The notes under the pieces were generated by a model. The model ran no database searches, had not been told where the DNA came from, and saw nothing but the letters and a program-made list of their open reading frames with translations. From a virus, in the IMG/VR virus record IMGVR_UViG_3300017717_000120, positions 1-20,626 of that record: a stretch of 20,626 bases of DNA, one strand, 5' to 3'. How positions within the stretch are numbered: the first letter of the stretch is position 1; each line of letters opens with the position of its first letter. Positions 1 through 20,626 of the stretch are shown here, one piece after another. A program made the translations under genes and the position numbers.

Positions 1-2
1 AG

Positions 3-731
3 ACGGCGATAGATAATGGTTGGGTGTGGAATATACCTAGTTGGGAAAGAATTGGTACTGGTTATGTTTATTCAAGTAAATATATCAATGATGATGACGC
101 ATTAATACAATTTAAACAATACTTAGGTAGAGACGATTTAGAATTTAAAAACATCCGTATGAGAGTTGGCAGACAAAAAGAAATGTGGATAAAAAATGTA
201 TGTTCAATTGGTTTATCTGCCGGATTTATAGAACCATTAGAGAGCACAGGTCTTTTACAAACACATACGTTTATAATGAAACTAGTATCTAATTTAGAAC
301 GAGGTGATTTTTCACAATGGGATAGAGACACACACAACTTAGAGTGTAATAGTATTTTTGATGAGTATGTTACATTTGTTGCCATGCATTATGCCTTATC
401 ATTAAGAGACGATACACCATATTGGCAAGATGTAAGAAAAAGAAGTTTGGTACATTTAAAAGAAGTACAATCTTTAATGAATGCCAAAATGCAAGATTAC
501 TATTTTAACCCATTAGGTGGTATGCATTATATAGCAACAGGTTTAAATTGGCAGGCAGTATCATTATTAGATGTAGAACAATTATTGTATGACCCGGATA
601 CAAAAGAGATAAACGAAGAATGGACAAATCATTTAGAACAAAACAAACAAGATTGGCAAAAAATAGTAAATACTATGCCATCTTTATATCAATATTTAAA
701 AGACAACATATATGAAAATCGCCCTAGTTAA
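3..731 (+). CDS. Flavin-dependent tryptophan halogenase-like protein, C-terminal part (5' truncated)
   Basis: This is the C-terminal part of a flavin-dependent (tryptophan) halogenase; these enzymes use FADH2, O2 and halide to halogenate tryptophan or related aromatics. The reading frame is open to the window edge, so the gene starts upstream. The GTG at 24 should not be taken as the start, because the family's WxWxIP motif (WVWNIP) is encoded at 21-38 and begins before it. A second family signature, SAGFIEPLEST, follows at about 215-247. The N-terminal FAD-binding GxGxxG is outside the window. Homologues are known in marine T4-like phages. The substrate cannot be read from sequence, and a free amino acid, a peptide or another aromatic are all possible. 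The end overlaps the next gene by 20 bases, which suggests co-translation with gp47. Family call is confident; activity is inferred. Confidence 0.88.
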   Translation, partial: TAIDNGWVWNIPSWERIGTGYVYSSKYINDDDALIQFKQYLGRDDLEFKNIRMRVGRQKEMWIKNVCSIGLSAGFIEPLESTGLLQTHTFIMKLVSNLERGDFSQWDRDTHNLECNSIFDEYVTFVAMHYALSLRDDTPYWQDVRKRSLVHLKEVQSLMNAKMQDYYFNPLGGMHYIATGLNWQAVSLLDVEQLLYDPDTKEINEEWTNHLEQNKQDWQKIVNTMPSLYQYLKDNIYENRPS

Positions 732-1755
732 CGACACACATTTTGGATGTCGTAATGACAATCCAAATTACCATGAATACATGTATAAGTTTTGGCAAAA
801 ACAATTCTTTCCATACTTAGAACAAAACGATATCAAAACAATTATTCATTTAGGTGATATATTAGATAGACGTAAGTATGTAAACTTTAAAACACTTACT
901 GATTTTAATAATAAGATAGTAAGTCAATTTAAGAAATATGATACACACTTTATAGTAGGTAACCATGATACCTATTACAAGAACACAAATGAAGTAAACG
1001 CACCTAAAGAATTGTTAAGTCAGTTTAAAGTTTATTCAGACCCACAAAAGATTACAATTGCAGGACATGATATATTGATTATACCATGGGTAACACCTGA
1101 AAACTACGATAGAACTAAAATGATGTTAGAACAAGAAACAGCAGACATTGTTATGGGTCATTTAGAGATTAAAGGTTTTGAAATGCATACTGGACATCAT
1201 TCAGATGTAGGTGTAGAAAAAGAAATGTTTAAAAGATTTGAAACAGTATTATCTGGTCACTTTCATAAGAAATCAGATGATGGTCATATATTTTACCTTG
1301 GTTGTCAATATGAAATGACTTGGTCAGATTATAAATGTCCTAAACACTTTCACATTTACGATACAGAAACAAGAGAACTTACACCAATACGAAACCCTTT
1401 AACAATACATCATAAAATATATTACAATGATGAAACTACAGATTATAAGAACTTTGATTTTAATGAATGTAATAACAAATACATTAAACTTATAGTAGAA
1501 AAGAAATCAGACTACTTTATGTTTGATAAATTTGTTGATGATATTTACCAAAAGTCTAATGTATATGATTTAAAAATTATAGAAGATTATTCAGACTTAG
1601 ACGCTTCAACAGTAAATGATGATATAGTTGAAAAGACGGAAGATACACCAACTTTACTTGATACCTATATAGAACAAACAGATACGAATTTAAATAAAGA
1701 TAGATTAAAAACCTTAATGAAAAGTTTATATACGGAGGCATTTGACTATGAGTAA
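712..1755 (+). CDS. 47: Recombination endonuclease subunit gp47 (SbcD/Mre11 family)
   Basis: This is the metallophosphatase subunit of the T4 gp46/gp47 nuclease, the phage Mre11-Rad50 equivalent. It resects DNA ends for recombination-dependent replication and helps degrade host DNA. The 347 residues match T4 gp47 in size. All phosphoesterase motifs are visible: D8 and H10 (NDTH), D49 (HLGDILD), N84-H85-D86 (GNHD), H150 (MGHLE) and H183/H185 (SGHFH). The ATG overlaps the halogenase end by 20 bases. The stop lies inside the next start region (ATGAGTAA), so the 47, oxygenase and 46 cistrons are probably translationally coupled. No promoter is visible in front of it, so transcription must come from upstream of the window. 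Confidence 0.96.
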   Translation: MKIALVNDTHFGCRNDNPNYHEYMYKFWQKQFFPYLEQNDIKTIIHLGDILDRRKYVNFKTLTDFNNKIVSQFKKYDTHFIVGNHDTYYKNTNEVNAPKELLSQFKVYSDPQKITIAGHDILIIPWVTPENYDRTKMMLEQETADIVMGHLEIKGFEMHTGHHSDVGVEKEMFKRFETVLSGHFHKKSDDGHIFYLGCQYEMTWSDYKCPKHFHIYDTETRELTPIRNPLTIHHKIYYNDETTDYKNFDFNECNNKYIKLIVEKKSDYFMFDKFVDDIYQKSNVYDLKIIEDYSDLDASTVNDDIVEKTEDTPTLLDTYIEQTDTNLNKDRLKTLMKSLYTEAFDYE

Positions 1756-2461
1756 TTACGACCACAAATATGAATATAAAAATATGTACTTTGGTCCTTA
1801 CATCTATCATTGTAAATTAGACCCACAATTTTGTAAAGATTTATTAGAACAAGGTGATAAAACTACAGATAGATATTTACAAGAAGACGGTACATATACT
1901 AATCAAATTATTAAAGATAGTTTAGCAGGTGATTTAAAAACAGGACATGAAAGACAATTTGATGGCAAACAACAAAGATGGTTTAATAAAAGTTTAAAAG
2001 ATGTGTTTACACATTATACAAAAGAACGTATGAACTTTCATAACTATATTTTTGTACCAGATTATGTAATAGAGAACGTATGGATTAATTATCAACATGC
2101 CAATGAATATCAACCTGAACATACACATTCTGGTGACTTTAGTTGGGTAATCTATTTACAGATACCAGAGGGCATGAAAGCAGAAAGAGAAAATTATAAA
2201 AAGAAAGGTCCTGGTCCTGGTTGTATTGCATTTAGTTATGGCGAGACAAGTGGCAATCCAGATGTAACTTTTCCTTGGGTAACAAATATTCACATGGGAG
2301 TACCTGAAGCAAATGAAATGTATATCTTTCCGTCTCAGTTAAAACATGCTGTGCCACCATTTAAGTGTGATGGTGTAAGAATATCAGTAAGTGGTAATGG
2401 TGCGTTTCAAAGACCAGATAGTAAACTATATGTTATGGGAGAAAAAAGATACGAAGTATGA
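1748..2461 (+). CDS. 2OG-Fe(II) oxygenase (2OG-FeII_Oxy_5-like)
   Basis: This is a putative 2-oxoglutarate and Fe(II)-dependent dioxygenase of about 237 residues. The double-stranded beta-helix core is recognisable: an HTHSGDFSW segment (H125, H127, D130) gives candidate proximal iron ligands, H200 in LKHAVPPF is the distal ligand, and R211 in RISVSGN is the likely 2-oxoglutarate anchor. The pattern matches the family named 2OG-FeII_Oxy_5, common in marine phages with unknown substrates. The ATG at 1748 was chosen because CGGAGG at 1733-1738 is 9 bases upstream; a TTG at 1742 would be too close. It sits between 47 and 46 with overlaps of 8 and 4 bases, so it belongs to the recombination-nuclease operon. 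A role in nucleic-acid or protein hydroxylation is possible but unproven. Confidence 0.82.
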   Translation: MSNYDHKYEYKNMYFGPYIYHCKLDPQFCKDLLEQGDKTTDRYLQEDGTYTNQIIKDSLAGDLKTGHERQFDGKQQRWFNKSLKDVFTHYTKERMNFHNYIFVPDYVIENVWINYQHANEYQPEHTHSGDFSWVIYLQIPEGMKAERENYKKKGPGPGCIAFSYGETSGNPDVTFPWVTNIHMGVPEANEMYIFPSQLKHAVPPFKCDGVRISVSGNGAFQRPDSKLYVMGEKRYEV

Positions 2462-5174: not shown

Positions 5175-5180
5175 TAGGAT
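5152..5180 (+). promoter_or_regulatory. Early sigma70-like promoter P1 (DruA-like gene 1)
   Basis: The -35 TTGACA is at 5152-5157 (in context GCTTGACA) and the -10 TAGGAT at 5175-5180, with exactly 17 bp between. TGTGA precedes the -10, giving an extended TGn element. The promoter lies inside the end of the glycosyltransferase-like gene. The next ATG (5193) is only 12 bases past the -10, so a transcript starting at the usual distance would have a leader of about 5 nt. Confidence 0.85.
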
Positions 5181-5192
5181 ATAGACTATATT

Positions 5193-6449
5193 ATGGCAGA
5201 AAAAATTATAGACCCTTTATTAGAAAAGCAATGGGAGACCTTTCAACAAGAAAACCCTACACCTTACGAACATATAGATACAAACGAACTTAAAGAACGT
5301 TTAATTACTGAACTAGGTTATGTGTCTGGTATGACGGTAGAAGAATATACGTTATATCAAAAATGGTGTGAAGTTAAAAACAAGTATCCTGCTCAGACAG
5401 TAAACACTTTATTTGGCGAAGAAAGTCAATTAGTAGATTTATCAAAAGACAAACTATTAACTCATGTAAAGAACAATATATGGTCACCTCAGGATCCTAT
5501 GGATTTTGAGAAGTTACAACCAGAACTAATCTATACAAAAGATAGTCCAGAATTACCACAATTGTGGAACGCAATAAGAACATTTGCCTCTACAATGAAA
5601 AACAATAACAATATAGGTCGTAATCTAAACTTTATAGTAAGAGATAAACCAACAAAGAAATATCTAGGTGTCATTTGTATATCAAGTGACTTTTTAGATT
5701 TAACACCTAGAGATAGTTACATAGGTTGGGATAGAGAACGTAAAACTAAAAAGATGATTAATCACACGGCGATAGGTAGTACGATTGTGCCACTACAACC
5801 ACTAGGTTATAATTACACAGGTGGTAAGTTACTTGCGTTGATGTGTTTATCAGATAAAGTACAAGAGACATGGAAAAAAGAATATGGCGATACAATGGTT
5901 GGTGTTACAACTACAAGTTTATATGGTAGTTTTAGTCAATATCAAAATTTAAGACATTGGAAGAAAAGAGGTCATAGTGCAGGTAGTGTATCATACGAAG
6001 CAACAAAACCTACTATTCAAATGTTAAGAAAGTGGATTATGGAAAATCACACCAGAAAATACTTTGAATGGTATAGTGCTACAAAACCTACAGGTCAACC
6101 ATATAAGAGAGACCACAGAAATAGAAGTCATACATTTGCATATAGTAAACTAGGTATACCAAAAGAGTTAACAAAGTCAGACCACAGTAGAGGTATCTAT
6201 TTTTCCACACTATATGATAATACAAGAGAATTTTTACGAGAAGAAATACCTGAAGATAAACTAGTCAAAAGTTTTGAGAGTAGCGTTGACGCATTATCAG
6301 AATTATGGCGAGAACGTTATGCTAGAAAGCGTATTAAATCATTGATTGACCAAACAAGGACAAACATGGAGACGCTTTACTATGATGACTTGATACATTT
6401 AACATGGGAAGAAACCAAGGAAAAGTATCTAAAACAGGTAGGAAGATAA
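5193..6449 (+). CDS. DruA/DUF4338-like protein, paralogue 1
   Basis: I do not know its function. The 418-residue protein has a core at about 142-270 that resembles the DUF4338/DruA family: GRNLNFIVRD, LGVICISSD, then PRDSYIGWD (172-180), a segment with VPLQPLGYNYTGGKLLA (199-215), then TTTSLYGS and an HWKKRGHSAG stretch. DruA is the signature protein of Druantia anti-phage systems, but stand-alone relatives occur in phages and mobile elements, so a defence role is not implied. A second, diverged copy lies at 17618-18742 and shares the QP(L/F)GYNY.GGKLLA and TTSLYGS blocks. The ATG at 5193 has no Shine-Dalgarno and lies 12 bases past a strong promoter, so the mRNA is probably near-leaderless. 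The basic C-terminal half (290-418) has no motif I recognise. Confidence 0.62.
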   Translation: MAEKIIDPLLEKQWETFQQENPTPYEHIDTNELKERLITELGYVSGMTVEEYTLYQKWCEVKNKYPAQTVNTLFGEESQLVDLSKDKLLTHVKNNIWSPQDPMDFEKLQPELIYTKDSPELPQLWNAIRTFASTMKNNNNIGRNLNFIVRDKPTKKYLGVICISSDFLDLTPRDSYIGWDRERKTKKMINHTAIGSTIVPLQPLGYNYTGGKLLALMCLSDKVQETWKKEYGDTMVGVTTTSLYGSFSQYQNLRHWKKRGHSAGSVSYEATKPTIQMLRKWIMENHTRKYFEWYSATKPTGQPYKRDHRNRSHTFAYSKLGIPKELTKSDHSRGIYFSTLYDNTREFLREEIPEDKLVKSFESSVDALSELWRERYARKRIKSLIDQTRTNMETLYYDDLIHLTWEETKEKYLKQVGR

Positions 6450-6458
6450 GAACAAAAC

Positions 6459-6524: not shown

Positions 6525-6590
6525 GTATTTTATGCCAATATATGTTGACTTTTTAACCAAATTGGTATAGGATATACAGTATATTATGAA
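6472..6590 (+). repeat. Duplicated intergenic block, copy 1 (in front of CobT-like gene)
   Basis: This block and 8946-9062 share, in the same order, GTGCGA, CAGCAAT, ATAAAGGTT, TTATGCCAATA, TTGACTTT, AACCA, TAGGATATA and TATATTATGAAAA, with small indels between. It spans the end of the structured 3' region, the promoter and the first ATG. The pattern suggests an old duplication of a terminator-plus-promoter module, or conserved regulatory sequence. Confidence 0.7.
6545..6573 (+). promoter_or_regulatory. Early sigma70-like promoter P2 (CobT-like gene)
   Basis: -35 TTGACT at 6545-6550, 17 bp spacer, -10 TAGGAT at 6568-6573. This is the only one of the six that lacks TGA directly before the -10 (it has GTA). 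Transcription would start near 6580, giving a leader of about 24 nt to the ATG at 6604 with GAGG at 6594-6597, or about 6 nt to the ATG at 6586. Confidence 0.83.
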
Positions 6591-6603
6591 AACGAGGTCA
6601 AAT

Positions 6604-8928
6604 ATGAATACTATTTCAAAAGAGCAAAAATCAAATCTTGCTAAATTACTTGCAACAGAAAATCTAAATGTAGAACACCGTAAAGTTAAGACAGCACACT
6701 TTGTACCTAAGACTAGAACTTTATGTCTTCCAATATGGGACAATATGTCTAATGACCTTTATGACTTATTATGTGGACACGAAGTTGGTCATGCATTATG
6801 GACTCCTGCTGATGAGACAAAATTAAACGAAGCAAAAAAGAAATACAATATTCCTCATTCTTACATGAATGTTATTGAAGATATCAGAATTGATAAGAAG
6901 ATGAAATTAAAATACCCTGGTCTTAGAAAATCATACTTTAACGGTTACAAAGAATTAGTTGCTAGAGACTTTTTTGGTAAGATTGGTGACGAAGCAAACA
7001 ATATGAGATTTATTGATAGACTTAATGTGTTTACAAAATCTGGTCACTTAGAAAATACTATTGAGTTTAATGACCAAGAAAAATCATTTATTGAAAAATC
7101 AAATCACTTAGAAACTTTTGATGATGTAATTGACCTTGCAAAACAAATATTCAAATATTCTGGTGAAGAAAATTACGATAAAGAAAAAGACCCTTTATAT
7201 CAACAGTTAAAAGAAATAGAACAAGATAAACTTGACCAAGATGAATTAGATAATCAATCAGAGCAATCTGATAGTTCAGATAGTCAGGATCCAGGTGACC
7301 AAGAACAAGAACAATCTGGTGGCGATAAAGAAGAAGATAAACAAGAAGACAATACTTCTGGTAGTTCACAAGGTAACGAAGACAAACCTGAAAACGATAA
7401 TAAACAAAAAGTAGATGGTGACAAAGGTCACATGGGTGGTCATAATCCAGATTATCAACCTGAAAAAATTACTCCTTCAAAAAGTGACGGTTCATTAACT
7501 GATGAAGTATTTAATGAAGCAATGAAGTCTTTATCAAATATGTCTGAGAATACTAGAGACCGTATGTATGTTACATTACCAAGTCTTAATGAGGATGACG
7601 TTATTGTATCTACAAAACAAATTGCTAAGATATACAAAGATTACTATGTAAAATATCAATCAACTCCTAGATTGTTAGCAAATAGTGTGAATAGATTTAA
7701 AGAGTGGAAGAAATCACAATCTGGTACAATCTCTTATATGGCAAAAGAGTTTGAAATGAAAAAAGCGGCAGATAATTATAAAAAGTCTATGACAAGTAAA
7801 ACTGGTATTATCAATATGAATAAAATTCACTCATATAAATTCAATGATGATATATTCAAAAAAATTCAAGTAGAACCAGGTGCCAAAAATCATGGTATGA
7901 TTATGTTTATAGATTGGTCTGGATCCATGTCTCAAAATATTGATGACACAATCAAACAAACTTTAAACTTAGTAATGTTTTGTAAAGCAGTTCAAATACC
8001 TTTTAGAGTATTTGCTTTTTCAGATATTACTAGAGCTGCGTTCTATAAAAAAGACGCTGATGATGATTATGGTTATTCAAGTAGAGCAACAAGAGATATT
8101 AATAACAATCCTTTTAAACATAAACACGGTGACTTGTTTATTGAAAACGTAAACTTAATTGAGTGGTTATCAAGTGACCAAAAAACTCCTGAGTATAATG
8201 AGAATATGTTAAACTTATATAGATTTGGTGAGTATCATACTCAATATTATAATCATAGAAGAAATTATGACAGTTATGAAGAACCAATTGATATACCTAG
8301 TTGTATGAGACTTGGCGGTACTCCTTTGGATCCTGCTGTAGTTGCTTCTATAACTATTGTTAAAAACTTTATTGCTAAACATAAGATACAAAAAATGAAT
8401 ACAATCTTTTTAACTGATGGTTGTGGTCATTCAATGTATAATACTGTTGTTGAAGTAGATGGCAAGTTAGAATTAGATTATGGTGCTGAAAGAGCAGATT
8501 TAGTTATTAAAAATTCAATTACTAGAAAAAACTATCCTTATGAAAGTCATAGATTTACAAAATCAACTGCTGTTATATTTGATATGTTAAGACATGCTAC
8601 TGGTACTAACGTTGTAGGTTTCTATGTTACAAGTAGAAATAATGCTAGTTACTATGATATATCAAATTTCTTACCAGAAGGTGCCGGTTATAATGGTGTT
8701 GACGCTGTAAGAAAACAAATGCGTAAAGATAAAGTTGGTACTATTGTTGGTAATGGTTATGATGAATTGTTTATCATTCCAAAAAAGAATTTAAAGATAG
8801 TTGACGAAGAAGCGAAGATTGATCCAGATATGTCAATTGCTAAAATGAAATCAGAATTTGGTAAGACTTTAAAAACTAAAAAGATATCCAGAGTTTTACT
8901 GAATAAATTTGTGGAAAGAGTTGCCTAA
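6604..8928 (+). CDS. CobT-like large protein: HExxH metallopeptidase-like N-terminus plus VWA domain
   Basis: This large protein of 774 residues is of the type called CobT or VWA protein in marine T4-like phages. The N-terminus carries CGHEVGHALW, a zinc-type HExxH (about residues 59-63). An acidic D/E/Q/S-rich linker of about 100 residues follows, then a C-terminal von Willebrand A domain with an intact MIDAS: DWSGS (D437, S439, S441 from this start), GGTPLDP and LTDG. Real CobT pairs with CobS and CobN in cobalt insertion; no CobN is present, so a MoxR-VWA chaperone or remodelling pair with the next gene is more likely than cobalamin synthesis. I chose ATG 6604 because GAGG lies 6 bases upstream. 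ATG 6586, 12 bases past the -10, is the alternative and would add six residues (780 total). Codon choice favours T-ending codons more than the flanking genes. Confidence 0.85.
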   Translation: MNTISKEQKSNLAKLLATENLNVEHRKVKTAHFVPKTRTLCLPIWDNMSNDLYDLLCGHEVGHALWTPADETKLNEAKKKYNIPHSYMNVIEDIRIDKKMKLKYPGLRKSYFNGYKELVARDFFGKIGDEANNMRFIDRLNVFTKSGHLENTIEFNDQEKSFIEKSNHLETFDDVIDLAKQIFKYSGEENYDKEKDPLYQQLKEIEQDKLDQDELDNQSEQSDSSDSQDPGDQEQEQSGGDKEEDKQEDNTSGSSQGNEDKPENDNKQKVDGDKGHMGGHNPDYQPEKITPSKSDGSLTDEVFNEAMKSLSNMSENTRDRMYVTLPSLNEDDVIVSTKQIAKIYKDYYVKYQSTPRLLANSVNRFKEWKKSQSGTISYMAKEFEMKKAADNYKKSMTSKTGIINMNKIHSYKFNDDIFKKIQVEPGAKNHGMIMFIDWSGSMSQNIDDTIKQTLNLVMFCKAVQIPFRVFAFSDITRAAFYKKDADDDYGYSSRATRDINNNPFKHKHGDLFIENVNLIEWLSSDQKTPEYNENMLNLYRFGEYHTQYYNHRRNYDSYEEPIDIPSCMRLGGTPLDPAVVASITIVKNFIAKHKIQKMNTIFLTDGCGHSMYNTVVEVDGKLELDYGAERADLVIKNSITRKNYPYESHRFTKSTAVIFDMLRHATGTNVVGFYVTSRNNASYYDISNFLPEGAGYNGVDAVRKQMRKDKVGTIVGNGYDELFIIPKKNLKIVDEEAKIDPDMSIAKMKSEFGKTLKTKKISRVLLNKFVERVA

Positions 8929-8945: not shown

Positions 8946-9062
8946 GTGCGACATGTTGACACAGCAATTAATTTGTAAAGCGTTGAAAAATAAAGGTTTT
9001 ATTATGCCAATAACGCTTGACTTTAACCACAAACTGTGATAGGATATAGACTATATTATGAA
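8946..9062 (+). repeat. Duplicated intergenic block, copy 2 (in front of CobS-like gene)
   Basis: This is the second copy of the block at 6472-6590, with the same ordered string of short identities ending at TATATTATGAAAA. It lacks the branched T-tract structure of copy 1. It has its own possible fold instead: GCGTT (8980-8984) with AACGC (9012-9016), enclosing AATAAA and TTTATT as an inner stem. It holds promoter P3. Confidence 0.7.
9017..9045 (+). promoter_or_regulatory. Early sigma70-like promoter P3 (CobS-like gene)
   Basis: -35 TTGACT at 9017-9022 (context GCTTGACT), 17 bp spacer ending TGTGA, -10 TAGGAT at 9040-9045. The bases from -10 to the first ATG (9046-9057) are identical to those of P1, a 12-base match in an otherwise different context. 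Confidence 0.87.
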
Positions 9063-9084
9063 AAAAAATGAAAGGACTACATTT

Positions 9085-11668: not shown

Positions 11669-11675
11669 GTATATT

Positions 11676-11999: not shown

Positions 12000-12668
12000 A
12001 TGCAATTAAGTGAAAGTACAAAAGAGATACTTAAAAACTTTTCTGAGATTAATCCAAACTTGATGATTAAACCAGGTAAACAATTAAAGACTATCTCTAC
12101 AATGAAGAATATCCTTGCTACAGCAAATGTAAGTGAAGATTTTCCACAAGATATCGCCATCTATGACTTGAATGAGTTTTTAGGTGTAATGTCTTTATTT
12201 ACAAAACCACAGTTTGCCTTTGATGACAAATCGTTATCTATTGGTGAAGAAGGTACATCAACAAAGTCAAAATATTACTTTGCTGATCCTTCAATCTTAA
12301 CTGTTCCACAAAAAGATGTAAAAATGCCTGACGCAGAGGTACAGTTTACTCTAACTGAAACAGATTTAACTAAAGTGAAGAAAGCGGCGTCAATGTTACA
12401 ATTGCCAGATATCGCTATTACTTCTAAAGGTAGTGATATCACATTATCAGCAATTGATAAAAAGAATGATACTGCTAATAACTTTAGTATTAAAGTTGGT
12501 GAAACAAACTCTAAATTTGAGTTTCATTTTAAAACAGAACATTTAAAAATGTTACCTGGTGATTACAATGTATCTATCTCATCAAAATTAATTAGTAATT
12601 TTAAACACAAATCAAAACCAATTCAATACTGGATTGCTTTAGAAAACACAAGTAAATTTACTGGCTAA
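12000..12668 (+). CDS. 45: Sliding clamp gp45
   Basis: This is the trimeric DNA sliding clamp of T4-like phages, which holds DNA polymerase on DNA and, in T4, also activates late transcription together with gp33 and gp55. Length 222 residues against 228 in T4. The start MQLSESTKEILKNFSEINPN and the following IKPGKQLKTIS segment are typical of gp45. AAGGAG at 11986-11991 lies 8 bases before the ATG and overlaps the DUF3310 stop. The clamp-loader gene follows after 18 bases. The presence of a TATAAATA late promoter at 11068 is consistent with gp45-dependent late transcription. Confidence 0.93.
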   Translation: MQLSESTKEILKNFSEINPNLMIKPGKQLKTISTMKNILATANVSEDFPQDIAIYDLNEFLGVMSLFTKPQFAFDDKSLSIGEEGTSTKSKYYFADPSILTVPQKDVKMPDAEVQFTLTETDLTKVKKAASMLQLPDIAITSKGSDITLSAIDKKNDTANNFSIKVGETNSKFEFHFKTEHLKMLPGDYNVSISSKLISNFKHKSKPIQYWIALENTSKFTG

Positions 12669-12686: not shown

Positions 12687-13631
12687 ATGGAAAACTTTTT
12701 ATGGGTCGAACAATATCGACCAAGTAAGATTGATGAATGTATCTTACCTACAGAAATTAAGAATACATTTAAACAGATAGTAAAACAAGGAGAAATACCT
12801 AACTTATTATTATCTGGTACAGCAGGTACAGGTAAAACTACAATTGCGAAAGCATTATGTAACGAACTTGATTGTGATGTAATGATGATTAATGGTTCAG
12901 ACGAAGGTCGTTCCATTGACATTGTAAGAAATCAAATCAAGTCATTTGCCAGTACGGTTTCATTAAACGAAAGCAATAAACCAAAAGTAGTTATTGTTGA
13001 CGAAGCAGACTATATGAATGCTGAGTCCGTGCAACCTGCATTAAGAAACTTTATAGAAACATTTAGTAATAACTGTAGATTTATTTTTACATGTAACTAT
13101 AAAAACAAAATCATACCTGCTATCCACAGTAGATGTACTGTTATCAATTTTTCTGTTCAGAAAAAAGATAAAGAAAAGTTAGCAGGTTTATTTCACAAAC
13201 GATTATCCACAATACTAGAACAAGAAAACATTGAGTTTGATCCTAAAGTATTGGCAGAATTAATTATAAAATTCTATCCAGACTTTAGAAGAACTATCAA
13301 TGAATTACAACGTTATAGTGTAAGTGGTAAAATAGACACAGGAATACTTGTAAGTATTGCTGAAATGAATATCCAAGGTCTTAACAAAGCGTTATCTAAT
13401 AAACACTTTGGTGACATGAGAAAATGGGTAGTAGATAACATTGACAAGGATCCTACTGGTCTATATAAAGAACTATATCAAAACTTCTATGAAGTATTAA
13501 AACCTGAAACAATACCTGCTATGATTATATTACTAGCAGAGTATCAGTATAAGAATGCTTTTGTAGCGGATCCTGAATTGAATATGGTCGCTTGCCTAAC
13601 TGAAATAATGGGCGAGTGTAAATTCAAATGA
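12687..13631 (+). CDS. 44: Clamp loader large subunit gp44 (AAA+ ATPase)
   Basis: This is the ATPase subunit of the gp44/gp62 clamp loader that opens and loads gp45 on DNA. At 314 residues it matches T4 gp44 (319). It has EQYRPSKIDE at the N-terminus, Walker A GTAGTGKT (44-51), Walker B VIVDEAD (102-108), sensor-1 region FTCNYK and the SRC arginine-finger motif (148-150). GAGGA (12675-12679) is 8 bases before the ATG. The stop overlaps the next start as ATGA (13628-13631). In T4, gene 62 follows directly; here another gene lies between. Confidence 0.96.
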   Translation: MENFLWVEQYRPSKIDECILPTEIKNTFKQIVKQGEIPNLLLSGTAGTGKTTIAKALCNELDCDVMMINGSDEGRSIDIVRNQIKSFASTVSLNESNKPKVVIVDEADYMNAESVQPALRNFIETFSNNCRFIFTCNYKNKIIPAIHSRCTVINFSVQKKDKEKLAGLFHKRLSTILEQENIEFDPKVLAELIIKFYPDFRRTINELQRYSVSGKIDTGILVSIAEMNIQGLNKALSNKHFGDMRKWVVDNIDKDPTGLYKELYQNFYEVLKPETIPAMIILLAEYQYKNAFVADPELNMVACLTEIMGECKFK

Positions 13632-14086
13632 TAGGTTTAGGGTACTTAGACTATTGTCAAAAACGTATAGACGAAGGATTATCAACTCAACAAACTAAAA
13701 ACAATAGTGGTTTTGAGGATCCAGGTAAAGAACGTTTTGTTGTTTACTTTGCACGAACTCATATTATAGACCATCAAACTGGTGTTGAAGCTAGAGGTTT
13801 ACTTAAAATAGGTCGTGCCAAATTTGCAACAGCACTTCAAAGAAGTCGTAATCAACCTGGTTGTGATTTTCGTATCTATGCAGAAATAGTTTGTGAAACA
13901 AATAATCAAATAAAAAAACTAGAAAAGATAGTAGAAGAATTTTTAGTTGATAGACATGTTGAATTAACCCAAAATCAAAGAGAACTATATAATATAAAAG
14001 ATGATGAAATAAGACCTACGATTAAGGCAATACTTAATCATGTGTATTATTTTGAACCTAAAGAGGTGTGTTATTATGGAATATAA
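13628..14086 (+). CDS. GIY-YIG-like (T5orf172/Mug113-type) protein
   Basis: This 152-residue protein resembles the T5orf172/Mug113 branch of the GIY-YIG nuclease superfamily. Seen in order: VVYF (38-41) in place of GIY, LLKIGRA (58-64) in place of YIG, R72/R74 in RSRNQPG, a conserved-type glutamate E99 in KLEKIVEEFL, and RELY (118-121). These positions suggest the active-site layout, but I cannot confirm catalytic competence. It is inserted between the two clamp-loader genes, coupled by ATGA to gp44 and overlapping gp62 by 11 bases. That is tighter than a typical free-standing homing endonuclease. It may be a domesticated nuclease or an accessory replication protein. Confidence 0.6.
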   Translation: MIGLGYLDYCQKRIDEGLSTQQTKNNSGFEDPGKERFVVYFARTHIIDHQTGVEARGLLKIGRAKFATALQRSRNQPGCDFRIYAEIVCETNNQIKKLEKIVEEFLVDRHVELTQNQRELYNIKDDEIRPTIKAILNHVYYFEPKEVCYYGI

Positions 14087-15095: not shown

Positions 15096-15102
15096 AAAGA
15101 GC

Positions 15103-15131: not shown

Positions 15132-15143
15132 ATATTATTGTTT

Positions 15144-17621
15144 ATGCGAGATTTTTATACTAATGTTTCACCTTACGGCGATGAATTACTTGTCCGTGGT
15201 TTTCAAAACGGAGAGAGATTTGAAGATAGACTACATTATGTACCTTCAATTTATCATCCTTACAAATCACCTGGCAAAACAAAGTACAAGTCACTAGACG
15301 GTACTCCACTTGTTGCTCGTAAATGTAAAACTGTCAAAGAAGCAAGAATGCTTATCAAACGGTATGAAGAGCATCCTAATTTTATATACGGGACAGATAG
15401 ATGGCAATATCAATACATTGCTGACTATTATCAAGGTACAGTAGAATACGACAAAAGCAAATTACGAATTTATACAATAGATATTGAAGTAGAAAGTGAA
15501 CATGGATTTCCTAATCCAGATGACGCTGACGAAAAAATGATTTGTATTACAATTAAAGACCAAATTAAAAAATCTATATTAGTTTGGGGTCTTGCTGATT
15601 ATACAGTTAAACAAAAGAATGTTAATTATATTAAATGTAAAGATGAAAAAGATTTACTTAAAAACTTCTTAGGTTTCTGGAAACAATATACGCCAGATAT
15701 TCTAACAGGTTGGAATAGTAAATACTTTGATGTACCTTATCTTATTAATAGAACTAAAAAAGTATTAGGCGAACACTCAATTAAAAGATATTCGCCATGG
15801 GATATTGTTGACGAAGACAAAGCATATCATAACGGTAGACAAGTTACATTTTTTAGATTGTTAGGTATTGCACAACTTGACTATCTACAACTCTATGCTA
15901 AATTTACAATTAAGAACCAAGAACGATATACACTTGACCATATTGCATTTGTAGAACTTGGAGAACAAAAAGATAAAAACCCATATGACACTTTTAAAGA
16001 ATGGTATCAAAATGATATACAATCTTTTATTGATTACAATATTGTTGATGTAGAACTAGTTGATAGACTAGAAGATAGATTACAACTGATTGAGCTTGCA
16101 ATCACTATGTCTTATAATGCAAAAGCAAACTTTGAAGATGTATTCTCACAAGTTAGAATGTGGGACACAATCATATTCAACGAATTATTAAAAGATGATA
16201 TTATTGTACCAATGAGAAAGATTGGTAGTATTCAAGCAAAAGAACTTGTAGGTGCATATGTTAAGGATCCTAAAGTAGGTTTCCATGATTGGGTTGTATC
16301 GTTTGACTTGAACTCACTATATCCACATTTGATTATGCAATACAATATTAGTCCTGAAACTATACTACCAGAACAAAAAGATATATTGATTGATGACTTA
16401 CTTGAAAAGAAAGTTGACACGTCTGACGGTAACTGTATTGCTGCCAATGGCACAATGTATAAACGAGACGTACAAGGTATGTTGCCACGAATTATACAAA
16501 AAGAATATAACGATAGAGTTATTTACAAAAAGAAAATGTTAGAAGCAGAACAAATGTATGCTAACACAAAAGATAAGAAGTATGAAAAACTGGCAAGAAA
16601 GTTTTATATCATACAACACTCTAAAAAAATATCTTTGAATAGTGCTTATGGTGCAATTGGTAACAAATACTTTAGATATTATGACCATAGACAAGCAGAA
16701 GCGATTACTATGTCTGGTCAATTAAACATTAAATGGATTGAAAAAAGATTAAACGAATACTTTAACAAGTTATATAATACAGATGATGATTATATCATTG
16801 CGTCTGATACAGATAGTGTGTACATCAATATGGCACCACTTGTTAAGATGACAGGTGCAACTGATAAAGATAAAATTGTAAAAGCATTAGACACATTTTG
16901 TAGTGAAAGACTAGAACCATATATTGCAAAAGTATATAAAGAACTTGGCGATTATATGAACGTTAGTGAAAACAAAATGGTTATGAAACGAGAGGCGATT
17001 GCTGATAGAGGTATCTGGACTGCCAAGAAAAGATATGTTCTAAATGTTCATAATTCTGAGGGTGTTCAATATTCTGAACCTAAACTTAAAATTATGGGCA
17101 TTGAAGCAGTAAAAACTTCAACGCCATTACCTGTTAGAGAAAAGTTAAGAGAGAGTTTTAAAATATTAATGTCTGGTAATGAAACACAAATGAAAGACTT
17201 TGTAATAAAATTTAAACGTGACTTTGAACATATGACACCAGAACAGATTGGTTTCCCTCGTAGTATTAACAACATAGAAAAATATTCTGACACAACATCT
17301 ATATACAAGAAAGGTACACCAATGCATGTCAAAGGTGCATTGTTATATAATCACTTATTAAAAACTAATAAAGTGGCACATAAGTATCAACGAATATATA
17401 ATGGCGATAAAGGTAAGTTTGTACATCTAAGAAAGAATATATGGAATGCAAATGTAATTACTTTCATTGCAGATTTGCCAAAAGAATTTGATATGCATAA
17501 AATTATAGATTATGATTTACAGTTTAATAAATCATTTATGGAACCATTACGATTTATACTTGAAGCAATCAAGTGGCGAGTTGACGCAAGCGAAACAAGT
17601 AACCTAGAGGATTTCTTTTGA
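15144..17621 (+). CDS. 43: DNA polymerase gp43 (family B)
   Basis: This is the replicative family-B polymerase with 3'-5' proofreading, 825 residues (T4 gp43: 898). Exonuclease motifs: DIEVE (D113, E115), SKYFDVPY (D196), and a YNIVDVE exo III. Polymerase motifs: A, SFDLNSLYP with D388; B, ISLNSAYG near 500; C, SDTDSVY with D555 and D557. ATG 15144 gives the usual start MRDFYTNVSPYG; the in-frame TTG at 15138 adds two residues and falls near the expected transcription start. No Shine-Dalgarno precedes the ATG, so a leader of about 6 nt is predicted from P5. The stop overlaps the next gene as TTGA (17618-17621). Confidence 0.97.
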   Translation: MRDFYTNVSPYGDELLVRGFQNGERFEDRLHYVPSIYHPYKSPGKTKYKSLDGTPLVARKCKTVKEARMLIKRYEEHPNFIYGTDRWQYQYIADYYQGTVEYDKSKLRIYTIDIEVESEHGFPNPDDADEKMICITIKDQIKKSILVWGLADYTVKQKNVNYIKCKDEKDLLKNFLGFWKQYTPDILTGWNSKYFDVPYLINRTKKVLGEHSIKRYSPWDIVDEDKAYHNGRQVTFFRLLGIAQLDYLQLYAKFTIKNQERYTLDHIAFVELGEQKDKNPYDTFKEWYQNDIQSFIDYNIVDVELVDRLEDRLQLIELAITMSYNAKANFEDVFSQVRMWDTIIFNELLKDDIIVPMRKIGSIQAKELVGAYVKDPKVGFHDWVVSFDLNSLYPHLIMQYNISPETILPEQKDILIDDLLEKKVDTSDGNCIAANGTMYKRDVQGMLPRIIQKEYNDRVIYKKKMLEAEQMYANTKDKKYEKLARKFYIIQHSKKISLNSAYGAIGNKYFRYYDHRQAEAITMSGQLNIKWIEKRLNEYFNKLYNTDDDYIIASDTDSVYINMAPLVKMTGATDKDKIVKALDTFCSERLEPYIAKVYKELGDYMNVSENKMVMKREAIADRGIWTAKKRYVLNVHNSEGVQYSEPKLKIMGIEAVKTSTPLPVREKLRESFKILMSGNETQMKDFVIKFKRDFEHMTPEQIGFPRSINNIEKYSDTTSIYKKGTPMHVKGALLYNHLLKTNKVAHKYQRIYNGDKGKFVHLRKNIWNANVITFIADLPKEFDMHKIIDYDLQFNKSFMEPLRFILEAIKWRVDASETSNLEDFF

Positions 17622-18742
17622 TATTAAATAACCAAGACGCTACATGGGCAATGAATTACTTTATAGAATACTTTGGTCAATATGAAAGAATAGACCAATA
17701 TCTTAAAGAACAAAAATTAGAACAAGTTAAAAATTTTCCATTTCAATTACCTGGTATGGCAGACGAAGACGAGTTTTTTGCTAACTTTGAAATATCTCCT
17801 GAAGATATGAAATTTAGCGTGACGATACCTAATGGTCAAATATTTGATAGAATGTTAAACAAAACATCTAGTCATACTAACATGTCAAGTATACCTGGTA
17901 AGTCAATTAGATTATTAGTTACAGAAACAACTACAAATACTATTGTAGGTTTTATTAGACTTGGTAGTCCTGTGATTAATAGTAAACCACGAAACGTTTA
18001 TCTTGGTAGACCTTTACAAACTACAGACATGGAAGAAATGGGTAGATTTAACAATAGTGCCATTATGGGATTTGTAATTGTACCTACACAACCATTTGGT
18101 TATAATTATCTTGGTGGTAAACTATTAGCGGCGATATGCTGTAGTCATCATGTGAGAGATATACTAAATATGAAATATAACACTAACATATGTTTATTTG
18201 AAACAACAAGTTTATATGGTAGTAGTAAATCATCAAGTCAGTATGATGGTATGAAACCTTATTTAAGATTTAAAGGTTTGACAGATAGTCACTTCTTACC
18301 ATTATTACATGGTGAAGCATTTAAGAAAATGAATGCCTGGTTTACAGAAAGAAACGGAGAACCTTTAGTTGACGCTGACGCAAGTAGTAGAAAACTAAAA
18401 ATACAAACAAAGATGGTATCTATAATTAAGGAATCCTTAAAACAATATGACGCCAATCTATATGATAAGTTTAGTAAGTTTGTAAATAAAACTAGAGACT
18501 TAACTGAACAGAAAAGATTTTACATGTCTGATTACGGATATGAAAATGTACCACAATATCTTAAAAGAGAAACAGACGAACTTAAAAAAGGTATACATTA
18601 CGATAAGTTTACATTAGAGAATACAATCAAATGGTGGCAAAAACTTGCTACTAAAAGATTTAATAAACTTAAACAAAACAATAACATAAGAAATGAACTT
18701 GAAATCTGGCATGATAAAGCAGAAATACAAATTATACGATAA
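17618..18742 (+). CDS. DruA/DUF4338-like protein, paralogue 2 (diverged)
   Basis: This is a second member of the family encoded at 5193-6449. The shared core (about 94-201) has SIRLLV, SAIMGFVIVPTQPFGYNY (147-164), GGKLLAA and ETTSLYGS. The PRDSYIGW of copy 1 reads PRNVYLGR here, and the HWKKRGHSAG block that follows TTSLYGS in copy 1 is absent, so this copy may have lost or changed an activity. The 374-residue reading frame starts with TTG at 17618, supported by TAGAGG (17605-17610) 7 bases upstream and by TTGA overlap with the polymerase stop. An ATG at 17651 is the fallback. The C-terminal 130 residues are basic and helical with no known motif. Its place directly after gp43 suggests co-expression with replication. 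Confidence 0.6.
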   Translation: MILNNQDATWAMNYFIEYFGQYERIDQYLKEQKLEQVKNFPFQLPGMADEDEFFANFEISPEDMKFSVTIPNGQIFDRMLNKTSSHTNMSSIPGKSIRLLVTETTTNTIVGFIRLGSPVINSKPRNVYLGRPLQTTDMEEMGRFNNSAIMGFVIVPTQPFGYNYLGGKLLAAICCSHHVRDILNMKYNTNICLFETTSLYGSSKSSSQYDGMKPYLRFKGLTDSHFLPLLHGEAFKKMNAWFTERNGEPLVDADASSRKLKIQTKMVSIIKESLKQYDANLYDKFSKFVNKTRDLTEQKRFYMSDYGYENVPQYLKRETDELKKGIHYDKFTLENTIKWWQKLATKRFNKLKQNNNIRNELEIWHDKAEIQIIR

Positions 18743-19202
18743 TTATTTACCTGAGAAAGATATAAAATGGTTAGAAGACCTTTTACTATCAGCAAACTTT
18801 CCTTATTACTATCAAAGTAGTATTACAAAGAATGATAGTGAGTTTATGTTATCACATAGTCTTATTACAGGATCCTATAGCAATAGTGATTGGGCAGAAC
18901 CTATTGTATCTAAATTAATGGAAAAGATTCCACATGAACAAATTATCCGTGCTAAAGTTAACTTTTATCCTAGAACACATGAAATAGTAAAACATAACTT
19001 TCATACAGATAGAGATAACTTTCCAGTTAAAGCGGCATTATTTTATGTTAATAATAATGACGGATATACAAGTTTTGAAGATGATGGTTTTATATCATCT
19101 ATCAGAAATAGAATGTTGCTTTTCAACGGAAAAGAAAGGCATAGAAGCACCACATGTACGAATGCTAATGCCAGAATAAACATTAATATTAATTATAATT
19201 AA
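18693..19202 (+). CDS. 2OG-Fe(II) oxygenase (prolyl-4-hydroxylase-like)
   Basis: This is a second putative 2-oxoglutarate/Fe(II) dioxygenase, of a type widespread in marine T4-like phages. It has HTD (H104, D106) in FHTDRDNF, distal H150 in KERHRS, and R161 in ARININ as the 2-oxoglutarate anchor; GYTSFEDD and FNGKERH are typical flanks. It is unrelated at sequence level to the oxygenase at 1748-2461. It overlaps the DruA-like gene by 50 bases from ATG 18693. An ATG at 18711 would cut six residues, and neither has a clear Shine-Dalgarno. Substrate unknown. Confidence 0.83.
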   Translation: MNLKSGMIKQKYKLYDNYLPEKDIKWLEDLLLSANFPYYYQSSITKNDSEFMLSHSLITGSYSNSDWAEPIVSKLMEKIPHEQIIRAKVNFYPRTHEIVKHNFHTDRDNFPVKAALFYVNNNDGYTSFEDDGFISSIRNRMLLFNGKERHRSTTCTNANARINININYN

Positions 19203-19204
19203 GC

Positions 19205-19233
19205 TTGACTATTTGAAAGGAGTATGATATAAT
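19205..19233 (+). promoter_or_regulatory. Early sigma70-like promoter P6 (uvsX unit), overlapping a Shine-Dalgarno
   Basis: -35 TTGACT at 19205-19210 (context GCTTGACT), 17 bp spacer ending ATGA, perfect -10 TATAAT at 19228-19233. The spacer contains AAAGGAG (19216-19222) and the -10 overlaps ATG 19232. An mRNA from this promoter would start near 19240, just before the in-frame ATG at 19244. Confidence 0.88.
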
Positions 19234-19453
19234 GGAACAAATAATGAAAAAAGCACAAGAACAAATGATAACAAATGAAGATTATCTTACAATGGTTAAG
19301 ATAATACAAGCAACACTTCAAAGAGGTGCAATTAAACCTGAAGAAATGACAGCAGTAGGTCAATTGTATGAGAAGTTAAAATTTCATTTGCTTAAAGTAG
19401 AAAACGAACAAAAGGAGAAAACAGATGGCGGACTTTCTAAAACAAATAATTAA
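19232..19453 (+). CDS. Small helical protein upstream of uvsX
   Basis: This 73-residue predicted helical protein is of unknown function; I find no motif. Its place directly before uvsX may hint at a recombination accessory role, but it is too short for UvsY and not recognisably related. There are two starts. ATG 19232 has AAAGGAG 9 bases upstream but lies inside the promoter -10. ATG 19244 (69 residues) is the first ATG on an mRNA made from P6 and has no Shine-Dalgarno on that mRNA. The end overlaps uvsX by 29 bases. Confidence 0.68.
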
Positions 19454-20444
19454 AGAAACTGGCAATGAATATGCGAGTGTAGTAAGTGAAGGTGTTGAAG
19501 CAGGTGATGTAGATAGTTTCATAGACACAGGTTCGTATATGTTTAATGCCTTACTATCAGGTAGTATTAATGGTGGTTTACCAAGTAATAAAATTACGGC
19601 GATTGCAGGTGAAAGTGCAACAGGTAAAACTTTCTTTGTACTAGGTATGGTAAAAGAATTTTTACAGAATAATAAAAATGCAGGTGTAATTTACTTTGAA
19701 AGTGAAAGTGCATTAACAAAAAAACTTATTGAAGATAGAGGTATTGATAGTGAACGCATGGTAATTATGCCTGTAACTACAGTACAAGAGTTTAGACATC
19801 AAGCATTAACAGTATTAGAAAAATACAATGAACAAGATGAAGCAGATAGACAACCATTGTTGTTAGTATTAGATAGTCTTGGTATGTTGTCAACAACAAA
19901 AGAAGTAGAAGACACAGCAGAGGGTAAAGAAACTAGAGATATGACTAGAGCACAAATACTTAAAGCTGCGTTTAGAGTATTAACATTAAAACTAGGTAGA
20001 ACAAAAGTACCTATGATTATTACTAATCATACATATGACGTAGTTGGTGCATATATGCCAATGAAAGAAATGGGTGGCGGTTCAGGTTTGAAATATGCTG
20101 CTAGTACAATTGTATATCTATCTAAGAAAAAAGAAAAAGAAGGTACAGACGTAGTTGGTAATATCATACATTGTAAAACTCAAAAGTCCAGATTGTCAAA
20201 AGAAAACATGATGGTTGATGTAAGATTAAGATACGATACTGGTTTAGATAAACACTATGGTTTGGTTGACTTAGCAGTTAAACATGGCATATTCAAACAA
20301 GTATCTACAAGAATAGAACTACCAGACGGTACTAAACAATATGCGAAAAGCATATATGCTGATCCAGAAAAATATTTTACTAAAGATGTAATGAAACAAT
20401 TAGACGAAGCTGCAGACAAAGAATATAGTTATGGAAACTCCTAA
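19425..20444 (+). CDS. uvsX: RecA-like recombinase UvsX
   Basis: UvsX is the T4-type RecA/Rad51 strand-exchange protein that acts with gp46/gp47 and gp32 in recombination-dependent replication. The 339 residues have Walker [10 protein letters not shown] (61-69), FESESAL with E94 as likely catalytic glutamate, Walker B LLLVLDS (D150), and the loop region [11 protein letters not shown] with GGGSGLKYA. Length is somewhat shorter than T4 UvsX (391). AAAGGAG (19411-19417) is 7 bases before the ATG. It should be co-transcribed with the 73-residue protein from P6. Confidence 0.96.
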
Positions 20445-20626
20445 TTATACATACATGGAAAATCCTAAAAGTGACCTTACAGGTTTTAGGATTACTGATG
20501 GTGTGTATAAAGACGTTGTTTATACTTATGGCAAAGTCCAACCTGTTGAAGAAAACGATAAGTTGAGATTAAAGTTTGAATATAACGTTGTAGAGAATCC
20601 AAGTGGTGTAGAAACGGAAGATAAAA
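20431..20626 (+). CDS. Conserved-type phage protein downstream of uvsX (3' truncated by window)
   Basis: An open frame starts at ATG 20431, overlaps uvsX by 14 bases and runs without a stop for 65 codons to the window end. The visible part, with [11 protein letters not shown] and [11 protein letters not shown], looks like a compact beta-rich protein. I recall similar small proteins of unknown function directly after uvsX in marine T4-like phages. No function can be assigned. Only a weak AAAGAA precedes the ATG. Confidence 0.65.

Follow-up and report, generated by a model that had tools for sequence, protein, structure and literature searches.

Every GATC in a 20,626-nucleotide stretch of viral DNA (IMG/VR record IMGVR_UViG_3300017717_000120; the window, throughout) is followed by C, and most lie within GGATCC. 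This raises the question of what has removed the other GATC sites, and why these were spared. A sequence-only reading of the window had listed 14 GATC, ten in GGATCC and four in TGATCC, and our recount agrees (table 1). Its division of these sites into 12 Asp-Pro (GAT CCN) and two Gly-Ser (GGA TCC) contexts was borne out, as was its statement that Asp ahead of any other C-starting codon is always GAC (25/25).

Table 1. GATC sites and genes of the window discussed in the text
Feature	Position	Strand	Remarks
GGATCC	5492..5497		Gln-Asp-Pro, inside DruA copy A
GGATCC	7287..7292		Gln-Asp-Pro
GGATCC	7921..7926		Gly-Ser
GGATCC	8328..8333		Leu-Asp-Pro
TGATCC, one-sided	8820..8825		other strand GGATCA
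GGATCC	9954..9959		Lys-Asp-Pro
TGATCC, one-sided	12284..12289
TGATCC, one-sided	13238..13243
GGATCC	13448..13453		Lys-Asp-Pro
GGATCC	13568..13573		Ala-Asp-Pro
GGATCC	13717..13722		Glu-Asp-Pro
GGATCC	16265..16270		Lys-Asp-Pro
GGATCC	18870..18875		Gly-Ser
TGATCC, one-sided	20360..20365
DruA-family gene, copy A (slot A)	5193..6449	+	PF14236 E 1.1e-20; just upstream of peptidase-family gene
Large peptidase-family gene	6586..8928	+	PHROG 459; downstream neighbor of slot A
AAA_5 gene, named CobS in HTVC008M	9058..10257	+	adjoins peptidase-family gene
DruA-family gene, copy B (slot B)	17618..18742	+	PF14236 E 4.6e-10; just downstream of DNA polymerase gene; GNAT-like model

GATC Survives Only Within GGA/TCC

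In 200 synonymous-codon shuffles the window carried 46.9 ± 4.8 GATC (minimum 34), and a maximal Markov model predicts 52.9; the depletion therefore stands, and the earlier estimate of about 60 was somewhat high. GGATCC is in excess, with 10 copies against 1.6 ± 1.2 (maximum 6), in line with the one or two that had been expected, and GATC followed by A, G, or T is absent against 33.6 (minimum 24). No shuffle reproduced the GATC pattern. The forbidden class is best written as HGATCD, GATC lacking a preceding G on either strand (0 against 30.1 in the same shuffles); one-sided sites, such as TGATCC, have this G on one strand only. HGANTCD is similarly absent (0 against 26.5), and GGA/TCC is contained in all six GANTC, all 23 TCNNGA, and the single GATGC of the window.

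One Exception for Four Words in HTVC008M

As the source record of the window comprises 20,626 bases, the genome-wide test was done on its near relative and closest isolate, Pelagibacter phage HTVC008M (147 kb). HGATCD is absent there against about 205 expected (200 synonymous shuffles) and is missing from all 15 blocks examined, each 10 kb long at most; the bias thus recurs across a whole genome. The + strand carries 17 GGATCA or GGATCG sites, so that the proposed requirement for a following C holds in the window and fails as a general rule. The rule is instead strand-symmetric: GATC survives only with a preceding G on at least one strand, and its sites fall in more than one reading frame. Other forbidden forms are absent or scarce (observed/expected against synonymous shuffles here and below): HGANTCD 0/212, TCDHGA 0/230, and HGATGC 9/187. 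Their G-preceded counterparts persist to differing degrees (one-sided GGATC 55/118, GGANTC 33/58, TCDGGA 140/128, GGATGC 14/19, GGATCC 28/11, TCCGGA 1/5). The survivors of GATC, GANTC, TCNNGA, and GATGC therefore share a common exception, GGA/TCC, which the sequence-only reading had confined to GATC, and codon usage does not explain the loss of sites.

TCGA (2/210) and one-sided GGAATTC (0/5), neither of which has GGA at the critical adenine, are not spared, and GGAGTCD is absent from HTVC008M (0/10.8). When GGA was assessed as an immune trinucleotide in HTVC008M it scored low and was no outlier, with avoided words numbering 5/209 among those with GGA and 86/1843 overall. A general penalty on close GA/TC pairs was rejected: TCAGA and TCTGA occur about as often as expected, and GA and TC separated by three or more bases are at most mildly depleted.

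The Exception Varies Among Phages

Tolerance of G-preceded sites is graded. Mosig keeps only GGATCC (19/6; one-sided GATC 0/99), and the phage G003 fully keeps one-sided GATC (98/90; HGATCD 0/172) with no excess of GGATCC (8/11). Sparing of GGATCC was thus correctly recognized, but it is not special to that form, since one-sided GGATC is also kept in several phages. In Melnitz GATC is avoided whatever its flanks (10/232, 10/145, 3/11), and two further phages, G016 and G017, show no clear GATC exception. The HTVC019P-like podovirus loci avoid both GATC (0/1032, 0/499, 0/31) and GANTC (31/1171, 3/350, 0/23) without exception; the HTVC019P isolate comes from the same host strain as HTVC008M, and phages isolated on one strain avoid different words. 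Two HTVC010P-like loci that avoid GANTC have one-sided GANTC at 7/12. Across the HTVC010P-like loci taken together, even GGATCC is avoided. That GATC is avoided and GGATCC spared, as first proposed, is nonetheless supported by the shuffles, by the whole HTVC008M genome, and by the variation among relatives. The GATC purge looks like part of a wider loss, different from one relative to the next, in which many words of restriction type have been purged.

TCDGGA is kept wherever TCNNGA is avoided, regardless of the genes in the two slots described below. Three T4-like sets that overlap in part give pooled counts of 383/398, 391/397, and 139/127; the pooled values are 31/49 for seven loci of the HTVC019P-like type and 9/6 for two of the HTVC010P-like type. 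G011 carries a C5 methyltransferase in either slot, and its counts are 31/36 for TCDGGA and 0/52 for TCDHGA. Pooled TCCGGA in avoiders is 0/7, 0/13, and 0/3. Among other T4-like phages, G004 avoids HGATGC (6/35), and GGATG is avoided in G004 (3/25) and G020 (2/19).

DruA-Family Genes Occupy Two Exchangeable Slots

Both DruA-family proteins of the window exceed the curated PF14236 cut-off (74.4 and 39.6 bits against 27). In relatives, slots A and B hold DNA methyltransferases or methyltransferase-like genes, and this exchange suggests, from gene position, that DruA may modify DNA. The SPPY families among them are called methyltransferase-like on motifs, their matches to Pfam PF01555 being below cut-off (E 0.0048, 9.1e-5, 0.0042), and the slot B SPPY family has no match among PDB sequences at E 0.1. 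The model of copy B (mean pLDDT 67) is tentatively GNAT-like: GNAT proteins make up most of the Foldseek matches listed (best E 0.022, probability 0.96), VIA Z scores reach 8.1, and its structural neighbors include Mu Mom (8bv8; Z 7.2, 176 residues aligned).

A motif scan of HTVC008M ([DNS]PP[YFW] motif IV and C5 motifs, rather than a profile search) found no canonical DNA methyltransferase of Dam or GGATCC type; it picked up NPPY in a protein of 153 aa, together with what look like chance matches in VrlC (2001 aa) and in a baseplate protein of 383 aa. The methyltransferase that the sequence-only reading had suggested looking for thus has no plausible candidate by motif in HTVC008M, but in the window DruA-family genes occupy slots that hold methyltransferase(-like) genes in relatives.

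The GGA/TCC exception does not track DruA or methyltransferase-type genes in the slots: G016 has methyltransferase-type genes, G017 has DruA copy A, and Melnitz has a C5-type gene after the polymerase and neither DruA nor the SPPY pair. DruA as the cause is further weakened by G002 and G009, which show the exception with no PF14236 match. The CobS-peptidase pair is another possible cause. It is present in the exception-showing genomes examined and absent from Melnitz, and from the gp46-gp45 interval in G016 and G017; against it, the cyanophages possess the pair and show no avoidance, and in L207 it is accompanied by no clear exception (2/18, 2/11).

Origin of the Avoidance

Restriction is the inferred source of selection, and we slightly favor placing the exception mainly in the cutting enzymes rather than in modified phage DNA. 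The pattern would be explained by avoidance of sites cut by related half-site nucleases that spare G-preceded half-sites, a reading to which we assign a probability of roughly 0.45. The window belongs to a T4-like Pelagibacter phage, whose lineage would meet several DNA-cutting defense enzymes and has lost nearly all GATC, GANTC, TCNNGA, and GATGC over time by mostly synonymous changes, the spared sites being those in which G precedes GA (read as GGA on one strand and hence TCC on its complement). The cutters may be related dimeric nucleases that read a half-site HGA/TCD in varied spacings and orientations and cut G-preceded half-sites poorly. The graded tolerance seen in Mosig and G003 fits two half-sites, and the retention of TCDGGA in TCNNGA avoiders with differing slot genes also favors this reading. 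GGATCC, with both halves G-preceded, would then be the safest form of GATC, reached via G-ending codons before Asp-Pro.

Several observations sit awkwardly with this enzyme-based reading. Four words with one exception would require that several enzymes share one unusual blind spot, and few known enzymes show such D/H degeneracy, an example being Bsp1286I (GDGCHC). The HTVC019P-like loci, which lack the exception for GATC and GANTC, would call for enzymes of another kind against these two words. TCCGGA, both halves of which are G-preceded, should be the safest TCNNGA, yet it is rare in avoiders, perhaps from separate avoidance of CCGA (16/171) and related words; GGATGC is 0/4 in the HGATGC-avoiding G004. 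Candidate host enzymes are likewise sparse: in 397 SAR11-order genomes the DpnII-family nuclease had no match over cut-off (two other DpnII-bearing host groups were not taken for SAR11, given genome size and family size), and SAR11 is reported, in the parts of the sources considered, to have almost no R-M systems (PMC9516812, PMC7029224). In favor of host enzymes, a D12 adenine methyltransferase stands beside a typA-like gene in 8/297 SAR11-order genomes, and 9/297 carry a full-length D12 methyltransferase. Three of these D12 genes adjoin small ORFs of similar start; by eye, the two whose whole sequence was inspected resemble GIY-YIG proteins, but the two tested against Pfam had no match. One D12 gene adjoins an AlwI-like fragment, a match below cut-off.

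A possible, if doubtful, alternative is that phage DNA modified at GGA, most simply on the adenine, shields those sites whose cutter needs the adenine of GA unmodified, the modifying enzymes being the DruA pair or the same-slot methyltransferases of relatives. It would account for a single exception to four different words in one genome, for the lack of a GATC/GANTC exception in HTVC019P (no PF14236 match) and its relatives, for the avoidance of GATC in all contexts by Melnitz, and for the loss of words whose critical adenine does not lie in GGA. Methyltransferase(-like) genes in the DruA slots are in keeping with it, as is the GNAT-like copy B model with Mom among its neighbors, DUF4338 being described as a GNAT domain in the passages available of PMC10853773. 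Against it, G002 and G009 show the exception with no DruA-family match, G011 and the podovirus loci show the TCNNGA exception, G016, G017, and Melnitz have slot genes and no clear GATC exception, and T4-like phages also avoid some GGA words (GGATG, GGAGTCD). Its more specific form, rather unlikely in our estimate, is that GNAT-like DruA-family proteins constitute a DNA-modifying pair, exchangeable with amino- or C5-methyltransferase pairs, which in the window's phage would modify GGA and so leave all four words surviving only within GGA/TCC.

Less probable by some way is that the phages themselves encode cutters that degrade host or rival DNA, each genome shedding the sites of its own nucleases. 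This would suit counts that are zero rather than merely low, the reported lack of most R-M systems in SAR11 genomes, and the different avoidance of phages from one strain, but no recognized nuclease appears among avoider-only families (32 phage genomes or contigs and 12 words, with up to six families listed for each). Those listed for GATC include a gene in the ribosomal protein S21 position, clade-specific hypotheticals, and the SPPY family; a candidate co-varying with AGCT is a cytidylyltransferase-type protein present in non-avoiders too. A positive role for GGATCC as a bound or methylated signal, raised by the sequence-only reading, is very improbable. The excess in the window and in HTVC008M suggests it, but the window sites lie in coding codons, G003 has a complete purge and no excess, and the HTVC010P-like loci avoid GGATCC. 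The base preceding Asp-Pro is G in 27/124 cases in HTVC008M and 19/84 in Mosig, against a third-base G frequency of 0.10, and in Mosig G precedes 18/18 GAT-Pro and 1/66 GAC-Pro. The excess thus arises because G-ending codons are chosen before Asp-Pro as an escape; GGATCC is an allowed form, reached partly in this way by synonymous changes, and needs no positive role. A translational or mutational bias against GAT before C, save before Pro, is barely credible: most window sites are indeed Asp-Pro in one frame, but the shuffles never reproduced the pattern, the rule is strand-symmetric with sites in other frames, and the cyanophages S-SM2 and P-TIM68 (50-kb stretches) readily place GAT ahead of C in that context (85/124 and 76/93).

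Relation to Known Systems

The avoidance resembles known restriction-site avoidance in phages in its near-zero words, strand symmetry, independence of codon usage, and variation between relatives. It differs in having one flank exception, G before GA, over four words, and in that many words have been purged from phages whose host group is reportedly almost R-M-free. According to the passages available of PMC9516812, roughly half of 33 pelagiphages are depleted in GANTC, Autographivirinae in particular, consistent with our HTVC019P-like loci; those passages do not mention avoidance of GATC, TCNNGA, or GATGC, or the GGA/TCC exception. The window proteins match the DruA of Druantia (PF14236, DUF4338), and here they form a matched pair that occupies two slots among replication genes. 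Mu Mom is a DNA-base modifier that targets A between G or C, a rule that differs from GGA; the copy B model may share with it a GNAT-like fold, and the Z score is tied with those of many GNAT proteins. DruA-like proteins are reported in six Synechococcus phages in the passages seen of PMC12774648, and the part seen of PMC12904381 includes a review table that lists Druantia under DNA modification (methylation).

Pelagiphages abound in the ocean. Their hosts are described as almost devoid of R-M systems, yet these genomes bear traces of many restriction specificities, and the GGA/TCC exception gives a sharp, quantitative pointer to either an enzyme property or a phage DNA modification that is missing from the present picture. 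The passages considered of this literature hold no account of DruA's own activity, and its exchange with genes of methyltransferase type suggests a function that can be tested for this defense protein; if DruA is indeed a DNA modifier, this would give the DruA of Druantia a biochemical role.

Retained GATC sites in the window and its relatives

The window, an entire virus record of 20,626 bases, carries a T4-like replication module (gp47, gp46, gp45, gp44, clamp loader A, gp43 and uvsX, named from Pfam and the HTVC008M annotation). Its polymerase shares 98.8% identity with the polymerase of Pelagibacter phage HTVC008M, a near-relative isolate with 'Candidatus Pelagibacter ubique' HTCC1062 as its recorded host. 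Word counts are given below as observed/expected, with expectations from synonymous-codon shuffles unless stated; each palindrome counts once, whereas all other words are tallied on both strands. The sequence-only reading described GATC as depleted and surviving only as GATCC, mostly GGATCC, and the count bears this out: all 14 GATC are GATCC, 10 of them GGATCC. The depletion exceeds codon use (200 window shuffles give a mean of 46.9 GATC, minimum 34), as does the GGATCC excess (10 versus 1.6 in 200 shuffles, maximum 6). The coding pattern reported there also holds; 12 sites encode Asp-Pro and two Gly-Ser, and all 25 Asp codons ahead of a C-starting codon other than Pro are GAC.

In HTVC008M (147,284 bases), the 83 GATC comprise 28 GGATCC, 55 one-sided sites (G before GATC on one strand only) and none without G on either side, where shuffles predict about 11, 118 and 205. 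The forbidden class is HGATCD (H, not G; D, not C), in which G precedes GATC on neither strand. GATC-avoiding T4-like phages differ in which G-flanked forms they keep:

GATC classes (observed/expected) in GATC-avoiding T4-like phages
Form kept	Phage	HGATCD	One-sided	GGATCC
GGATCC alone	Mosig	0/195	0/99	19/6
GGATCC alone	G009	0/146	9/95	19/7
GGATCC alone	G012	0/51	1/24	6/2
One-sided partly	HTVC008M	0/205	55/118	28/11
One-sided partly	G005	0/197	36/120	13/10
One-sided partly	G006	0/98	14/53	6/6
One-sided fully	G003	0/172	98/90	8/11
One-sided fully	G014	0/27	19/21	
One-sided fully	G025	0/38	24/29	
Little or none	Melnitz	10/232	10/145	3/11
Little or none	G016	0/47	0/33	0/2
Little or none	G017	0/48	0/25	1/3
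Little or none	G010	0/96	0/42	1/4

HGATCD is only partly avoided in phages G001 (35/252) and G002 (86/277), which keep the other GATC forms, and no GATC avoidance was found in 50-kb stretches of S-SM2, P-RSM4, P-TIM68 and AG-345-L05. The avoided-word set itself differs phage by phage: ACGT stands at 0/249 in Mosig versus 108/324 in HTVC008M, and AGTACT, TCTAGA, CAGTG, TGCNGCA and AGCT are avoided by some phages and tolerated by others.

The sequence-only reading had also entertained a positive role for GGATCC. Codons before Asp-Pro speak against this. In Mosig, every Asp-Pro written with GAT follows a G (18 of 18), and of those written with GAC 1 of 66 does. The share of Asp-Pro pairs with G immediately before them is 19 of 84 (Mosig), 27 of 124 (HTVC008M) and 8 of 18 (window), at a third-base G frequency of 0.10 to 0.11; in G005, at 13 of 116, there is no excess. 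Given these G-ending codons, the GGATCC excess looks like an allowed form rather than a sign of function.

The exception across words and phage groups

Three other avoided words also survive mainly as forms containing GGA/TCC. In HTVC008M, GANTC stands at 0/212 as HGANTCD, 33/58 one-sided and 10/7 two-sided; TCDHGA at 0/230 and TCDGGA at 140/128; HGATGC at 9/187 and GGATGC at 14/19. GGA/TCC is present in 6 of 6 GANTC, 23 of 23 TCNNGA and 1 of 1 GATGC sites of the window. TCGA, in which C always precedes GA, is almost absent from HTVC008M (2/210), where one-sided GGAATTC gets no sparing (0/5); TCAGA and TCTGA occur about as expected, and wider GA/TC spacings are mildly depleted at most. TCCGGA, G-preceded on both strands, is scarce (1/5 in HTVC008M; 0/7, 0/13 and 0/3 in pooled sets), a misfit to a simple half-site rule that may stem from separate avoidance of CCGA (16/171). 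GGAGTC is also missing where no C follows it (0/10.8 in HTVC008M, 0/9.7 in Mosig), an asymmetric avoidance, GGACTC being kept (11/9.7 and 10/10.7). CAGTG in HTVC008M shows another flank exception: no copy follows A (0/43) or T (0/30), and some copies remain behind C (6/27) or G (4/22).

The GATC and GANTC exception varies with phage group. Among unrelated podoviruses, HTVC019P-like loci with enough expected sites all avoid GATC (71 of 71), in every context (HGATCD 0/1032, one-sided 0/499, GGATCC 0/31), and 71 of 79 avoid GANTC without the exception (31/1171, 3/350, 0/23). None of 79 HTVC010P-like loci avoids GATC; GGATCC itself is among the avoided words when these loci are pooled, other GATC contexts lying near expectation, and the two of 74 that avoid GANTC keep one-sided sites (7/12). 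The TCNNGA exception was seen in all five sets with avoiding loci, most weakly in the HTVC019P-like set, where seven loci avoid TCDHGA (11/89) and TCDGGA stands at 31/49. Restriction-type words near zero in pooled HTVC019P-like loci (51 of at least 9 kb, from L354-L433) are many and include GATC (0/1338), CATCC (GGATG; 4/596), CCAGC (2/545), CATCG (5/506), GGCC (2/314) and AAGCTT (1/350); pooled HTVC010P-like loci (28 of at least 9 kb, from L434-L513) avoid GCCC (0/254), GGCC (0/118), ACCGT (11/229) and GATATC (1/84).

Pelagiphage GANTC depletion is already published (PMC9516812); within the open PMC literature, passages of PMC9516812, PMC7029224 and PMC9004378 describe no GATC avoidance that spares GGA/TCC.

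Restriction-modification in candidate hosts

Of 385 genomes sampled evenly across the class to which a Maritalea genome belongs, 9 matched the DpnII nuclease family; among 397 genomes of the SAR11 order, chosen because two of its genomes match a SAR11 16S probe exactly, none scored above the cut-off and one gave a weak match. Full-length D12 adenine methyltransferases occur in 9 of 297 SAR11-order genomes. Eight of the nine genes adjoin a typA-like gene, six of those being flanked on the opposite side by a GroEL-like gene (both named by eye), and the ninth adjoins an AlwI-like fragment below the cut-off; most may be orphans. At three loci (L578, L580 and L584) a small ORF of similar start adjoins the D12 gene, and the two whose full sequence was inspected resemble GIY-YIG proteins by eye, without a Pfam match. 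These loci, at which the D12 gene sits between the typA-like and GroEL-like genes, are candidate restriction-modification islands within a group described as lacking such systems. Candidate pairs are found in about one percent of SAR11-order genomes; published passages report restriction-modification in one SAR11 genome out of more than 100 (PMC7029224) and in none of eight metagenome-assembled genomes (PMC9516812).

DruA genes, the two slots and the source of the exception

Window features
Feature	Position	Location	Match
335-aa protein	4167-5174	between gp46 and DruA copy A	PHROG beta-glucosyltransferase, weak (E 0.00048); no Pfam match
DruA copy A	5193-6449	slot A, directly upstream of peptidase-family gene	PF14236
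T5orf172-domain protein	13628-14086	between two clamp-loader genes	PF10544 (E 0.00025)
DruA copy B	17618-18742	slot B, between gp43 and uvsX	PF14236

We take the T5orf172-domain protein to be possibly a GIY-YIG-type nuclease. Matched pairs of DruA, methyltransferase-like (SPPY-motif) or C5 methyltransferase genes occupy two fixed slots in T4-like marine phages. An SPPY pair fills both slots in G009, G010, G012, G013 and L232, and C5 methyltransferases fill both in G011 (PF00145 E 2.5e-52 and 4e-54). Mosig has DruA in slot A and, in slot B, an adenine-methyltransferase fragment resembling the G009 MT-A70 protein (PF05063 E 9.7e-29); G003, G004 and L038 have a 514-aa protein in slot A (glycosyltransferase-like by eye in G003 and G004) and DruA in slot B. 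In the cyanophages compared both slots are empty, S-SM2 carrying one DruA gene elsewhere. Among 225 contigs, with those retrieved through DruA similarity left aside, 37 had a readable slot A and 77 a readable slot B; slot types agree in 11 of 11 cases where each slot holds DruA or the SPPY family (Fisher p 0.002, uncorrected for relatedness, the window being closely related to G018).

Two readings of the exception lead: cutting enzymes blind to G-preceded half-sites, or phage DNA modified at GGA. Several mismatches count against the slot genes as its explanation. G002 and G009 lack a PF14236 match, yet spare G-flanked sites; G011, with its C5 methyltransferases, spares TCNGGA; and clear sparing of G-flanked GATC is missing from G016 and G017, where slot genes are present, and from Melnitz, which has a C5-type gene after its polymerase. 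Because the exception does not track the slot genes, we place enzyme specificity slightly ahead of phage modification, both readings being held at low confidence.

The predicted model of DruA copy B (28 sequences; mean pLDDT 67) resembles GNAT acyltransferases, consistent with the published assignment of DUF4338 to GNAT (PMC10853773, available text); Mu Mom is among its structural neighbours, at a Z of 7.2 equal to many others. A passage of PMC12904381 groups Druantia with DNA modification (methylation) and refers to a phage protein, Druad1, as promoting phage-genome methylation against type I Druantia; no statement that DruA modifies DNA was found in the available parts of PMC10853773, PMC12774648 and PMC12904381. 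The exchange of slots with methyltransferase-type genes, together with the matched types, suggests that DruA is functionally equivalent to DNA methyltransferases.
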